The notes under the pieces: model-generated
Database searches by the model: none
Seen by the model: only the letters and a program-made list of their open reading frames with translations
Told to the model about the DNA's origin: nothing
Assembly: GCA_020721585.1 (NCBI GenBank)
Contig: DYMK01000016.1
Span: 1 to 37,753 of the forward strand
Length of the DNA stretch: 37,753 nucleotides
Source: Sulfuricurvum sp.
GTDB taxonomy: Bacteria > Campylobacterota > Campylobacteria > Campylobacterales > Sulfurimonadaceae
Reading direction: 5' to 3'
Shown here: positions 3,910-8,576 of the stretch, piece by piece
Layout: every line of letters begins with the position of its first letter
How positions within the stretch are numbered: position 1 is the stretch's first letter
Position numbers and translations under genes: made by a program

Positions 3910-3936
3910 TAACGCTTCTTTGTTAAAGAAACGTTA
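3910..3936 (-). terminator. Hairpin starting in the era stop codon, possible weak terminator
   Basis: A 12-bp stem (TAACGTTTCTTT pairing with AAAGAAGCGTTA, one G-U pair) with a 3-nt loop begins with the TAA stop of era. It is followed on the minus strand by a T-rich stretch (CAATTCCTTTT). The stem is not GC-rich, so termination would be partial. It separates era from the pilus operon. Confidence 0.4.
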
Positions 3937-4812
3937 CCATTCGTATCCTAAATCACTTAAGAATTTTTTATCCGTACTCCACCCTTTTTTGACGGAAACA
4001 AAAAGTTCTAGGTAGACAGGTTTGGAAGAGAGACGCTCAATCTTTTCGCGGGCGCTTTTGCCAATGCGTTTGATGGCACTCCCCCCTTTGCCAATAATAA
4101 TCCCTTTTTGGGAATCTTTTTCGACAATGATCGTCGCACGAATATGCTCGGTAGGAGAATCTTCTTCAATCTTATCGATGAGTACATCGGATTCATACGG
4201 AATTTCGTCACTAATATTATCAAAAATGGCTTCGCGAATAAACTCTTTGTAAATCGTTCGGATCATCTCTGTGGTTATATCTTCAGGATTGTACAAATAA
4301 GGTGATTCATCCAAATGCTTGACAAGGGTATCCAATAAATCATTTTTTCCCACGTTTTTGGTCACTGACATCGGAATAAGCGCCAAAAAATGGTCACTAA
4401 ATTGGTTATATTCCCCAATTTTTTTGAGCAAATCCCCTTGAGAAATTTGATCAATTTTACTCAATACAATGATATGTTTCCGTTTTTGGTGATTGAGTTC
4501 CAAAAATTTCTCATAATGGACGGTTTTATCAGCAGCGGGTGCTAAATAGACGACGATGTCACAATCCCCAATCGCTTTAAGTGCCTCTTCAAGCATATAT
4601 TGATTCAGCAGTTTTTCCGCATGATGCAATCCAGGGGTATCCACAAAAACGATTTGATCTTCTTTGTGCATCACAATGGCATTGGAACGCTTACGCGTCG
4701 CATTGGCTTTTTGGCTGACCAATGCAATTTTTTCCCCCAAGATCCAGTTCATGAGGGTGCTTTTACCTGCATTGGGTCGCCCAACGAGAGCGACAAATCC
4801 CGCTTTCGTCAC
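3934..4812 (-). CDS. era: GTPase Era
   Basis: 292 residues, the usual Era length. Essential GTPase that binds 16S rRNA and assists 30S ribosome maturation (family knowledge). Visible motifs: G1 GRPNAGKS at 11-18, G3 DTPG at ~58-61, G4 SKID at 118-121 (S in place of the usual N), and a C-terminal KH RNA-binding domain with GIIIGKGGSAIKRIG near residues 238-252. The start is GTG at 4812, overlapping the rplI stop by 4 bp (GTGA), so translation is probably coupled to rplI. In Campylobacter and Helicobacter hslV and hslU lie between rplI and era; they are absent here. Confidence 0.95.
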   Translation of the reverse strand: MTKAGFVALVGRPNAGKSTLMNWILGEKIALVSQKANATRKRSNAIVMHKEDQIVFVDTPGLHHAEKLLNQYMLEEALKAIGDCDIVVYLAPAADKTVHYEKFLELNHQKRKHIIVLSKIDQISQGDLLKKIGEYNQFSDHFLALIPMSVTKNVGKNDLLDTLVKHLDESPYLYNPEDITTEMIRTIYKEFIREAIFDNISDEIPYESDVLIDKIEEDSPTEHIRATIIVEKDSQKGIIIGKGGSAIKRIGKSAREKIERLSSKPVYLELFVSVKKGWSTDKKFLSDLGYEW

Positions 4813-5258
4813 GAAAGACCCTGAATATCAAGATGAAGCGTAGCATGAATTCCATGCCCTAATTTAAGATCCAAATCGTGCATCCCTACGGTCTTAATAC
4901 CATGTTTGGCATCAAGATCTTTTTTATCGATGGTGATACCGTGTTGTTCCAATAAGGCGTGTGCAATCTCCTCTTTGGTCACAGAACCAAAAAGATGCCC
5001 CGTATCCCCTAATTTTTTCTTGATCACCACTTTAATATCCGCCAAAGTCGCTTTTACCGCAGTTAAGCGTTCGATCTCTTGTGCGGCATGGGCTGCTTTT
5101 TTGCGTTGCTCTGCCTCATGCTTTTTAATTACCTCATGGGTTGCAAGCAAAGCAAGACCTTTTCCAATGAGAAAATTCTTACCGTATCCATCGGAGACCT
5201 CTTTGATCTCTCCCGCTTTTCCCACATCTTTGACATCTTTTGTTAATAAAACTTTCAT
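4809..5258 (-). CDS. rplI: 50S ribosomal protein L9
   Basis: 149 residues, normal for L9. The N-terminal domain has the conserved pattern KVLLTKDVKDVGKAGEI and SDGYGKNFLIGKGLA (residues 2-36), followed by the long connecting helix and the C-terminal RNA-binding domain (~75-149). ATG start with AAGGA five bases upstream. It lies 12 bp after the FTR/rhodanese gene and overlaps era by 4 bp. Confidence 0.96.
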   Translation of the reverse strand: MKVLLTKDVKDVGKAGEIKEVSDGYGKNFLIGKGLALLATHEVIKKHEAEQRKKAAHAAQEIERLTAVKATLADIKVVIKKKLGDTGHLFGSVTKEEIAHALLEQHGITIDKKDLDAKHGIKTVGMHDLDLKLGHGIHATLHLDIQGLS

Positions 5259-5270
5259 ACGTTTCCTTGA

Positions 5271-6011
5271 TTATCCGCGCGCAATTGTGCCACCGTAGGA
5301 GACAATTCCGCCTTGTAAATTAGCCACTTTTAAATACCCCATGTCACTCAAAATACGTTGACAATGGGCACTTCGGCTCCCCACATGACAATAGACAATA
5401 ATATGGTCATCCATTGATAATTTTGCTTCCGTAAGCGTTTGGAAAAAGCTGCTAGTAGGGATTAGGGCATCAACTCCTTCAATACGTCCCGATTTCCACT
5501 CCATCCACTCACGCACATCGACCACTTTAAAGTTAACCATCCCCAATTCACGCGCTTCAAACAAAGAGGTTAATTCGTCCGAATCAACACTGTTTTTTTG
5601 CAATAAAAATTCACACTCTTGAGCAGAAAGACCACGTGAATGTTGGTGAACAACGGCTTCAATTTCTTCTGATTTTATAAGTGATGCCGCGTATTTGGGT
5701 GTACAGAAAATTTGACAGTGACATACACCCTCTTCCGGAATCTCTTTTTCAATTGCTGGAGTACAAGGACACATTCGGTTATCAGAGCTTTTGTAAACGC
5801 CATCAACTTCTTCAACCATATAACAAGGACAAAATCGCTTATTGTACATCATTTTATTACGAGTAAGTCCCATTTGAACCCCCTCGTTAATTTCTACATG
5901 AGGATTGTAAACCCAGTTAAATTGTTTAATTACCTTATCGGTAAACTTAACGGTTTTTTCCAATTCTACTTGAAACTCAGGTGAATTCATGTCAATTTTA
6001 ATGATACTCAT
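5271..6011 (-). CDS. Ferredoxin-thioredoxin reductase catalytic domain fused to rhodanese domain
   Basis: 246 residues from the ATG at 6011, which has AAGGA six bases upstream; a TTG five codons earlier lacks a ribosome site. Residues ~1-115 carry the cysteine pattern of the FTR catalytic (beta) chain: FCPCY, then MCPC.P, then CHCQIFC, i.e. CPC/CPC/CHC, which in that family holds a 4Fe-4S cluster and a redox-active disulfide. Residues ~145-246 form a rhodanese domain with DVREW and the active-site loop CHVGSRS, so its catalytic cysteine is present. Inferred role: thiol/disulfide or sulfane-sulfur transfer in the cytoplasm, possibly fed by ferredoxin. The spacing between CPC and CHC (13) is longer than in plant-type FTR as I recall it (about 8). 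Operon position between argG and rplI. Confidence 0.75.
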   Translation of the reverse strand: MSIIKIDMNSPEFQVELEKTVKFTDKVIKQFNWVYNPHVEINEGVQMGLTRNKMMYNKRFCPCYMVEEVDGVYKSSDNRMCPCTPAIEKEIPEEGVCHCQIFCTPKYAASLIKSEEIEAVVHQHSRGLSAQECEFLLQKNSVDSDELTSLFEARELGMVNFKVVDVREWMEWKSGRIEGVDALIPTSSFFQTLTEAKLSMDDHIIVYCHVGSRSAHCQRILSDMGYLKVANLQGGIVSYGGTIARG

Positions 6012-6026
6012 AGTACTTTCCTTCAA

Positions 6027-7244
6027 TTATTTATTTTTTCGTGCTTTACCGGCAATGATAAAGCGTAAAGCGTTGAGTTTAATAAACCCACCAGCATCTT
6101 TTTGATCGTATACGGAATCTTCTTCAAACGTACAATATTCAGGGTTGAATAACGACAGTTCCGAACTGCGCCCCACAACCATCACATTCCCTTTATAAAG
6201 CTTCAAGCGAACCGTACCACGAACATTTTCTTGGGTTTTATCAATCGCTGCTTGAAGCATCTCTCGCTCAGGGGCAAACCAAAAACCATTATAGACCAAT
6301 TTTGCATAACGGGGCATCAACTCATCTTTAAGATGCGCCTCTTCACGATCCAGTGTCAACGACTCAATCGCACGGTGGGCTTTGAGCATAATCGTCCCTC
6401 CCGGTGTTTCATAACATCCACGGCTTTTCATTCCGACAAAACGGTTTTCGACAATATCGGCTCGCCCAATACCGTGACGACCGGCGATGAGATTGAGTTT
6501 TTCCAACATGGTCGCAGGAGAAAGTGTTTTTCCATTGAGGCTAATAGGATCCCCTTTTTCATAACCAATTTCAATGTATTCGGCTTCATTGGGGGCATCT
6601 TGAGGCGATACGGTCCAACGCCACATACTCTCTTCCGGCTCGGCTGAAGGATCCTCAAGAATTCCCCCCTCATACGAGATGTGCAAAAGATTGGCATCCA
6701 TCGAATAGGGGGATTTTTTTCCGCTCATTTCAATCTTAATCCCATGTTCAGCCGCATACGCAAGGAGTTTTTCTCTCGAATTAAGATCCCATTCGCGCCA
6801 TGGAGCGATAATGGTCAAGGCACTGTTTTGCCCCAAATACCCCATCTCGAAGCGAACTTGATCGTTCCCTTTACCTGTTGCTCCATGACTCACCGCATCG
6901 GCACCCGTAATACGGGCAATTTCGGCTTGACGTTTGGCGATCAGTGGACGGGCAATTGATGTCCCCAAAAGATATTCCCCCTCATAAATCGCGTTGGCAC
7001 GAAACATTGGGAAAACATAGTCACGGACAAACTCTTCACGTAAATCTTCAATGTAAATATTTTCCGGTTTAATCCCTAAACTAATCGCTTTGGCACGAGC
7101 AGGTTCCACCTCTTCCCCCTGACCAATATCCGCTGTGAAAGTGACCACCTCACAGTTGTACTCATCTTGAAGCCATTTGAGGATAACGCTCGTATCCAAA
7201 CCACCTGAATAGGCAAGTACGACTTTTTTGACCTCTTTTTTCAT
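6027..7244 (-). CDS. argG: Argininosuccinate synthase
   Basis: 405 residues from the ATG at 7244, which follows an AAGGA box; a longer open frame to 7313 has no ribosome site and would add 23 unconserved residues. Joins citrulline and aspartate using ATP in arginine synthesis. The ATP-binding P-loop of the N-type pyrophosphatase family is at residues 11-19 (AYSGGLDTS). Further conserved blocks visible are [10 protein letters not shown] and [17 protein letters not shown], and the length is typical. Probable promoter -10 at 7289-7294. Located upstream of the FTR/rhodanese gene, rplI and era on the same strand. Confidence 0.97.
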
Positions 7245-7288
7245 AACCATCCTTACGTTAAAAGTATCTTTTTCAGTATTAATGCCCG

Positions 7289-7304
7289 ATTCTACCAAAA
7301 AAAT
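7289..7304 (-). promoter_or_regulatory. Putative argG promoter
   Basis: Minus-strand TAGAAT (7289-7294) directly preceded by GG and a run of seven T (to about 7303), the epsilonproteobacterial sigma-70 style with no clear -35. About 45 bp upstream of the argG ATG. Confidence 0.5.
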
Positions 7305-7364
7305 CATGAGCATGAGGTTAAAAATAATAATTGCTCACCCTTTGTTTATGGTACTATCACACCC

Positions 7365-8576
7365 ATGAAACGTTACTGGACCCTTTTACGCACCACCCCA
7401 CTCCTCGCACGCCTCTCTTTGATCCAATTAATTGCCTATTTTGGTGCGTGGTTTAGCAATATTGCTATTTATACGTTGCTCATCCAATTGCACGCTTCCC
7501 CATCCATTATTGCCCTCGTTGCTGCGTTGCATTTTTTTGCAGGGGTGTTGCAAGCCCCCTTAAGTGGAGTCATTATTGATCGTATCGCGCCCAAAAAGCT
7601 GATGATCATTTTGACCCTGATCGAACTAAGTGCGACCCTTTCCTTGATCCGTATTGATAGCATGGACAAGATTATCTGGTTGTATCTTCTTATTGCCCTT
7701 AGAATGGGGGCTTCGAGCTTTCAATTTACCGTCGAAATGTCACTTTTACCCAAAATTGTTCAGGGAAAAGCGTTGCAATACGCTAACGAAATTCACTCCA
7801 TCATTTGGTCATTGTCCTACACTGCAGGGATGGCATTGGGGGGATTTTTGGTCTACACTGCGGGGACAACGGCTGCTTTTGTAATCGATGCGTCACTCTT
7901 TAGCATTGTGTTTGTCTTGCTTCTGGGGTTAAAAGTTGAGATTCAACCCTCTCCAAAAAAGGAGCGTTTTATCACCATGATGGGGGATACCTTTGACTAC
8001 ATACGAAAAAATCCTAAAGTGATGCATCTCATGATACTGCACGCGGTCGTAGGATTTACCGCGTTTGATGCGTTGGTGGTATTGAGTGTCGAACGCTATT
8101 ACACTTCTATCCTTGCCGTATCGTTAGGGATTGGGTTGATCCACTCAGCTCGTGCAATGGGGCTTATGATTGGACCGCTTTTTTTGGGTGAGTGGGTCAA
8201 TCTGCATCGCTTGAGCTTTTTATTAATCGCTGAGGCATTGGCTATTGTCCTATGGGGCGTAGTCATTGAGTATTTTTATCTTGCTTTAATCGCATCGGTT
8301 TTGGTGGGATTGGTCACCACTACCTTGTGGTCGTATACCTACACCTTGTTACAAGCCCATACCCACTATGACTACTATGGAAGGGTCATTGCCTACAACG
8401 ACATGATTTTTTTAAGCACCGCAGGAGCCGTTTCATTAGTCATCGGAATTTTAGTGGATTACCATTGTCCCCTTGGGATTATCGCAGCTTTGTTAGGGGG
8501 AGCGTTTGCCCTTTCATCGCTGTATTACCGCTGGATTCGACACCATTATACCCTCAAGGAGATTGAAAACGCATGA
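7365..8576 (+). CDS. Major facilitator superfamily transporter
   Basis: 403 residues, almost entirely hydrophobic with roughly 10-12 membrane segments. It has the MFS loop 2-3 type signature near residues 70-85 (GVIIDRIAPKKLMII), as in drug- or siderophore-exporter-like MFS proteins (the EntS/MFS_3 type). Substrate cannot be told from sequence. There is no ribosome-binding site before the ATG. A TACTAT box at 7353-7358 ends only 6 bp before it, so the mRNA may be leaderless. The stop overlaps the next start by 4 bp (ATGA). Divergent from argG. Confidence 0.8.
   Translation: MKRYWTLLRTTPLLARLSLIQLIAYFGAWFSNIAIYTLLIQLHASPSIIALVAALHFFAGVLQAPLSGVIIDRIAPKKLMIILTLIELSATLSLIRIDSMDKIIWLYLLIALRMGASSFQFTVEMSLLPKIVQGKALQYANEIHSIIWSLSYTAGMALGGFLVYTAGTTAAFVIDASLFSIVFVLLLGLKVEIQPSPKKERFITMMGDTFDYIRKNPKVMHLMILHAVVGFTAFDALVVLSVERYYTSILAVSLGIGLIHSARAMGLMIGPLFLGEWVNLHRLSFLLIAEALAIVLWGVVIEYFYLALIASVLVGLVTTTLWSYTYTLLQAHTHYDYYGRVIAYNDMIFLSTAGAVSLVIGILVDYHCPLGIIAALLGGAFALSSLYYRWIRHHYTLKEIENA

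Follow-up and report, generated by a model that had tools for sequence, protein, structure and literature searches.

What might a protein do that joins the catalytic domain of a ferredoxin-thioredoxin reductase (FTR) to a rhodanese, and does the position of its gene between argG and rplI say anything about its role? This question is raised by positions 5271-6011 of the window, i.e. the whole 37,753-nucleotide stretch of Sulfuricurvum sp. DNA analysed here, for which the original prediction had suggested a direct hand-over between a [4Fe-4S] disulfide reductase and a persulfide carrier. Fusions of FTR-type modules with further redox carriers are already known, as are those of flavin reductases with a rhodanese; a rhodanese joined to the [4Fe-4S] FTR would, if the function proposed below is correct, represent a further, ferredoxin-driven way of persulfide reduction in bacteria that are common in sulfidic habitats. 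Such a protein would probably strip bound sulfur off its carriers as sulfide, a task which unrelated flavin enzymes perform in other microbes, and would offer, in one small, soluble and conserved protein with an obvious assay, access to how Campylobacterota turn sulfane sulfur back into sulfide.

Domains, predicted folds and conservation of the fusion protein

The gene (5271..6011, minus strand) encodes 246 aa and extends from an ATG at 6011, preceded by an AAGGA-type ribosome-binding-like site, to a stop codon ending at 5271. Pfam analysis located both domains in this single frame, each well above its cut-off and as originally named: FeThRed_B (PF02943) at aa 16-117 (5661..5966, minus strand; 104.2 bits against a cut-off of 22, E 4.6e-30) and Rhodanese (PF00581) at aa 159-239 (52.7 bits against a cut-off of 22.2, E 6.2e-14), the latter within a rhodanese domain spanning aa 144-246 (5274..5582, minus strand). 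Between them lies a linker (aa 118-143; 5583..5660, minus strand) that is modelled in part at low confidence (pLDDT below 50 at aa 116-125). The FTR domain carries a CPC-x17-CPC-x13-CHC active-site and cluster motif (aa 61-99; 5715..5831, minus strand), which aligns with the cyanobacterial FTR catalytic chain and whose three elements (CPC 61-63, CPC 81-83 and CHC 97-99) are spaced by 17 and 13 residues. These cysteines do precede an intact rhodanese loop, CHVGSRS (aa 208-214; 5370..5390, minus strand), in which the active-site cysteine is part of a six-residue CxxGxR loop (CHVGSR). A search of the window's genome with the FTR family found the fusion gene as its sole member.

The full-length AlphaFold2 model, built with 36 sequences (mean pLDDT 80.5, pTM 0.53), presented a confident rhodanese, a weak region around the cysteines and an arrangement of the two domains that is not fixed. 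Since rhodanese matches filled the list of the whole-model fold search, which therefore carried no information on the FTR half, the FTR part was modelled separately, and alone it reached a pLDDT of 91.1 and a pTM of 0.83. For this FTR-only model the 13 best Foldseek chains were all FTR or ferredoxin disulfide reductase (FDR), while VIA-align returned ten FTR/FDR entries at Z 9.7-11.2 and the next entry at Z 3.3. The model thus fits only FTR-family structures well and does not show an unrelated zinc fold, which the original prediction had named as the finding that would speak against it. A zinc fold or a chance motif is ruled out by this predicted fold together with the combined FTR and rhodanese motif, which never arose when the residues of the protein were shuffled 200,000 times. 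For the rhodanese half, solved rhodaneses were matched with Z values reaching 15.9; this set includes GlpE, Npsr, CoA-disulfide reductase (CoADR)-rhodanese and a persulfide dioxygenase-rhodanese fusion.

Conservation was assessed on 99 distinct fusion sequences; they derive from 101 members of the cluster, taken from the window and the fetched loci, and many belong to close relatives and are not independent observations. Across all 99, Cys61, 63, 81, 83, 97 and 99, His98, Cys208, Gly211, Ser212, Arg213 and Ser214 are invariant, and Cys103 is kept in 96. Mean pairwise identity amounts to 0.667 and 0.673 for the two halves and is lower in the linker (0.602). Because the catalytic positions are invariant and both halves are equally conserved, neither half looks like a passenger.

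With the FTR catalytic chain (PF02943; PDB 1dj7, 2pu9, 7bzk) the protein shares all six cysteines, the histidine of CHC and the fold (Z 10.7-11.0), but it differs in possessing a rhodanese, in having no FeThRed_A partner and in the greater length of the loop that links the second CPC to CHC. The variable subunit FeThRed_A was found in none of 21 genomes (the window's own and 20 relatives), the Synechococcus control being positive, from which we conclude that the protein is not the FTR heterodimer of plants and cyanobacteria. The FDRs of Methanosarcina acetivorans (4tpu, a molecule named rubredoxin, whose extra part is, judging by that name, a rubredoxin domain) and Desulfotalea (glutaredoxin-FDR, 7pwe) also fuse the FTR fold to another redox carrier, whereas here the partner is a C-terminal rhodanese and the third motif is CHC instead of CYC, a trait whose status as FDR-defining is read from those two sequences. 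A sub-threshold NCBIfam match (NF041072, 51.5 bits against a cut-off of 160) leads to the FtrB double selenoprotein, which belongs to the same catalytic family but is a selenocysteine-containing, 121-position model without rhodanese, while the present protein has cysteines throughout.

Occurrence, split genes and genomic neighbourhood

The taxonomic spread of the fusion, proposed at the outset as a check, proved to be wide. At E 1e-12 or better the protein was matched in 171 of 397 sampled Campylobacterota genomes, and at least 142 of the 397, with eight family codes, hold both domains in one uninterrupted frame, hits with internal stops being excluded from this count. The fusion is a conserved gene of Campylobacterota. 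Among the matches listed, fusion genomes are distributed over the family codes f1 (51), f9 (39), f6 (22), f20 (15), f16 (7), f18 (4), f4 (3) and f7 (1); in the window's own family the fusion is present in all 51 listed genomes, and for families f11 and f14, which we would guess to be Campylobacter- and Helicobacter-like, no fusion was among the matches listed for the 397 genomes. The other 29 matching genomes have an FTR alone, a rhodanese match alone or split genes, or fall outside the matches listed. In a scan of named genomes (best 80 of 148 relatives) the nearest were mostly Sulfuricurvum assemblies, with up to 84% protein identity. Sampling outside Campylobacterota consisted of an FTR family search of 14 control genomes, two of which, Synechococcus elongatus and Methanosarcina acetivorans, gave matches. 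The fusion protein had no match in phages, viral contigs matched neither it nor the FTR alignment, and one of eight matching plasmid records carried an FTR, there in split form.

The fetched loci contained 184 open FTR frames, a number that is redundant between overlapping loci, 165 of them fused and 19 unfused. Five of the unfused frames are followed just downstream by a separate rhodanese gene, with gaps of 57-72 nt in L152, L153, L154 and L176; the last is Sulfurovum mangrovi, where FTR and rhodanese are annotated as two adjacent genes, and the fifth pair (L151) was recognised by reading its frames. Sulfurovum-type genomes carry the two domains in this adjacent, separate form. Two full-length hits with internal stops (G412 and G405, corresponding to L153 and L154) are likewise adjacent split genes, which rules them out as pseudogenes. 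In another five cases (L141, L142, L145, L155 and L160) the unfused frame is immediately followed by a fusion, and nine frames stand alone, with no adjacent rhodanese. Joint function is classically indicated when two domains adjoin as separate genes in some genomes and are fused in others, and a functional link of FTR and rhodanese is supported here by their adjacency in the split-gene genomes. A tree of the FTR domain was built from 63 rows and 110 columns, with 17 of its 58 inner branches left open. The split pairs fall together in it (98/97), and the 'fused' group needs three changes, at least two of which are forced by starred branches. The split pair of L151 has, downstream of position 7636, a rhodanese loop reading CRTDNRS, with the conserved glycine replaced by aspartate.

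As regards its surroundings, the gene lies, as had been claimed, between argG (6027..7313, minus strand; the upstream neighbour, probably functionally unrelated) and rplI (4809..5258, minus strand; downstream), both being ORFs named from their sequence, and all three genes occupy the same strand with short gaps. The position stood, but its supposed oddity for a sulfur gene did not, since these flanks are a feature of the lineage: in the window and the named loci, 81 of 82 fusions have argG as their direct upstream neighbour, and rplI follows 78 of the 81 in which the downstream flank is visible, the misses being the inner sides of a tandem duplication in L068 and two loci (L094 and L099) without rplI. 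Outside this set of loci, argG occurs within 700 nt upstream in 3 of 28 fusions and rplI downstream in 7 of 28, and neither gene is beside any of the 19 unfused FTR genes. The argG-rplI position is an inherited synteny of Sulfurimonadaceae and near kin which says little on function, and it is no sulfur locus. Neighbours were named by ORF clustering and reading, with ten proteins of other loci run through Pfam; among the loci compared, neighbours change between families and no constant sulfur-metabolism neighbour or operon partner was found.

A possible route from persulfide to sulfide

By analogy with Npsr, the fusion may be a cytoplasmic ferredoxin-dependent persulfide (sulfane-sulfur) reductase and the [4Fe-4S] counterpart of that enzyme, a reading to which we give about an even chance. 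We infer a sequence in which Cys208 of the rhodanese would accept sulfane sulfur from thiosulfate, polysulfide or a thiol persulfide, whereupon an exposed active-site cysteine of the FTR (Cys63 or Cys99) would attack the Cys208 persulfide, yielding sulfide and a Cys63-Cys99 disulfide that the adjacent [4Fe-4S] cluster would reduce with two successive electrons from reduced ferredoxin. In this scheme Cys61, 81, 83 and 97 are presumed to be cluster ligands and Cys63-Cys99 the redox disulfide, as in the solved FTR. The direct hand-over between the two domains is plausible and is backed by the split-gene genomes, and the enzyme would draw down surplus sulfane sulfur and provide sulfide to biosynthesis, with no use of NAD(P)H.

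According to passages of PMC7969121, the flavin disulfide reductase Npsr bears at its C-terminus a rhodanese of about 100 aa; a surface cysteine of this rhodanese accepts the sulfur first, and the enzyme frees H2S from persulfides. As far as these passages describe them, Npsr and CoADR-rhodanese (3nta, 3ict, 6pfz) resemble the present protein in coupling a disulfide reductase to a C-terminal rhodanese of such length (here aa 144-246) and in the rhodanese fold, but their reductase half is an FAD/NAD(P)H enzyme with CoA, to which the [4Fe-4S]-type FTR is unrelated. Given this N-terminal half, the protein may work like Npsr, yet it is no member of the Npsr/CoADR-rhodanese group. The persulfide dioxygenase-rhodanese fusion 5ve3 also joins a rhodanese to a persulfide-handling enzyme, which is, however, a dioxygenase that uses oxygen and no reductase.

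The persulfide reductase reading is favoured because both domains are complete and the catalytic sites of both halves are invariant, because the FTR domain modelled alone takes the FTR fold and the two domains also occur as adjacent separate genes, because Npsr, a known persulfide reductase, has the same layout, because none of the 397 genomes has a CoA-disulfide reductase that exceeds the curated cut-off, and because a flavin thioredoxin reductase is already present in 394 of them at E 1e-60 or better (316 if the curated cut-off is applied), so that the general thioredoxin reductase role is filled. A role of the fusion as the sole thioredoxin reductase of the cell is ruled out by the same count. 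Distant CoADR relatives that score below the cut-off occur in 31 of the 397, among them the genome of the window, and a flavin persulfide reductase may therefore exist too. Against the reading stand the lack of a constant sulfur-metabolism neighbour, the domain arrangement that the full-length model does not fix (pTM 0.53) and the nine unfused FTR frames without adjacent rhodanese, which indicate that the FTR domain also works alone, perhaps on thioredoxin or another disulfide.

Those nine frames (of 19) speak at the same time for a ferredoxin-dependent protein-disulfide (thioredoxin-like) reductase, whose FTR half would reduce thioredoxin or a dedicated partner and whose rhodanese would be a separate sulfurtransferase or docking module that feeds no sulfur to the FTR; the motif CHC, shared with thioredoxin-reducing FTR where the solved FDRs align with CYC, points the same way. 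We nevertheless hold this to be rather unlikely, given the near-universal flavin thioredoxin reductase, a rhodanese cysteine and loop that are never degenerate in the 99 distinct fusions, and the adjacency of FTR and rhodanese genes in 5 of the 19 unfused frames. Delivery of sulfur for biosynthesis, in which the rhodanese persulfide would give its sulfur to an acceptor, for the thiolation of tRNA or cofactors or for Fe-S assembly, and the FTR would reduce the leftover disulfide, could draw on MoeZ- and MoeB-type thiolation enzymes, whose rhodanese parts are among the sub-threshold NCBIfam matches, and on the housekeeping genes around the gene in Sulfurimonadaceae, but appears improbable: neighbours differ between families with no constant thiolation partner, and families f11 and f14 need the same housekeeping pathways, yet have no fusion among the matches listed.

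The remaining alternative, that in sulfur oxidation the direction of the FTR domain is the oxidising one, electrons passing from persulfide to ferredoxin, depends on the relation of the fusion to Sox metabolism. SoxB was found over cut-off in 91 of 397 Campylobacterota genomes, including that of the window, likely a thiosulfate oxidiser, and to this extent the suggested fit with a sulfur-oxidising organism held. The fusion is also enriched with SoxB, which is present in 79 of 142 listed fusion genomes against 12 of 255 others (Fisher p 6e-31, a value inflated by shared ancestry), but 63 of the 142 are without SoxB over cut-off, so that neither that fit as a general statement nor a role as a regular component of the Sox pathway is supported. 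With these 63 genomes and the phylogenetic confounding of the enrichment against it, and with potentials that are unfavourable for ferredoxin reduction from persulfide, the oxidising direction is highly improbable. The fusion fits a sulfur-rich life; it is no part of the Sox pathway as such and is not bound to thiosulfate oxidation.

A bolder form of the persulfide reductase reading, and in our estimation a long shot, is that free-living Campylobacterota could rely on the fusion as their main ferredoxin-linked reductase of sulfane sulfur in the cytoplasm. It would then form a class of iron-sulfur persulfide reductases apart from the flavin ones, serving as a reactive-sulfur valve while sulfur is oxidised and also as the reductive arm of sulfur disproportionation in Sulfurimonas and Sulfurovum, a process that is incompletely explained. 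Passages of a 2026 paper (PMC12998232) state that no complete picture of microbial sulfur disproportionation exists and that SorAB-based pathways are likely in these two genera; the FTR-rhodanese protein is unmentioned in them. Elsewhere, in the passages seen, FTR and FDR are listed as [4Fe-4S] ferredoxin-linked reductases (PMC7278568), FTR and rhodanese are named only as separate families (PMC2398784 and the selenoprotein reviews PMC13188914 and PMC9312934), the Ftr of PMC9012536 is another enzyme and no FTR, and those of PMC4607533 and PMC9948710 hold nothing bearing on the fusion. No published description of an FTR-rhodanese fusion was found in titles, abstract openings and passages, a weak negative as subscription literature is mostly outside this body of text; domain databases very likely list the architecture already. 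The fusion protein is real and widespread, and it appears to be uncharacterised.

Local rearrangements and related arrays

Several minor features of these loci may be recorded. Most Sulfurimonas-type loci have hslV and hslU in the interval from rplI to era; at the rplI-era junction of the window (3934-5258) both are missing, as in many Sulfuricurvum loci. No HslV match and no HslU over cut-off were obtained in the window genome, from which the HslV/HslU protease seems to have been lost.

In the FTR tree, some Sulfurimonadaceae fusions (L056, L095 and L146, as against L136, L162 and L171) group with genomes of family f18 (99/99). All sit near argG or rplI nonetheless, and a same-locus replacement or an old paralogue is possible.

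In two loci of family f16 (L155:7723-11677 and L145:6838-10874), and partly in one of f13 (L160:7178-13148), an FTR gene is directly followed by an FTR-rhodanese fusion and then by small proteins and a DUF7897 protein. The two small neighbours tested, from L155 (classes c45 and c71), gave no Pfam match, and the array of L145 also has a separate rhodanese. Two complete FTR-rhodanese fusions stand in tandem between argG and rplI in L068 (6004-7475) and in L147, each case being a local duplication.
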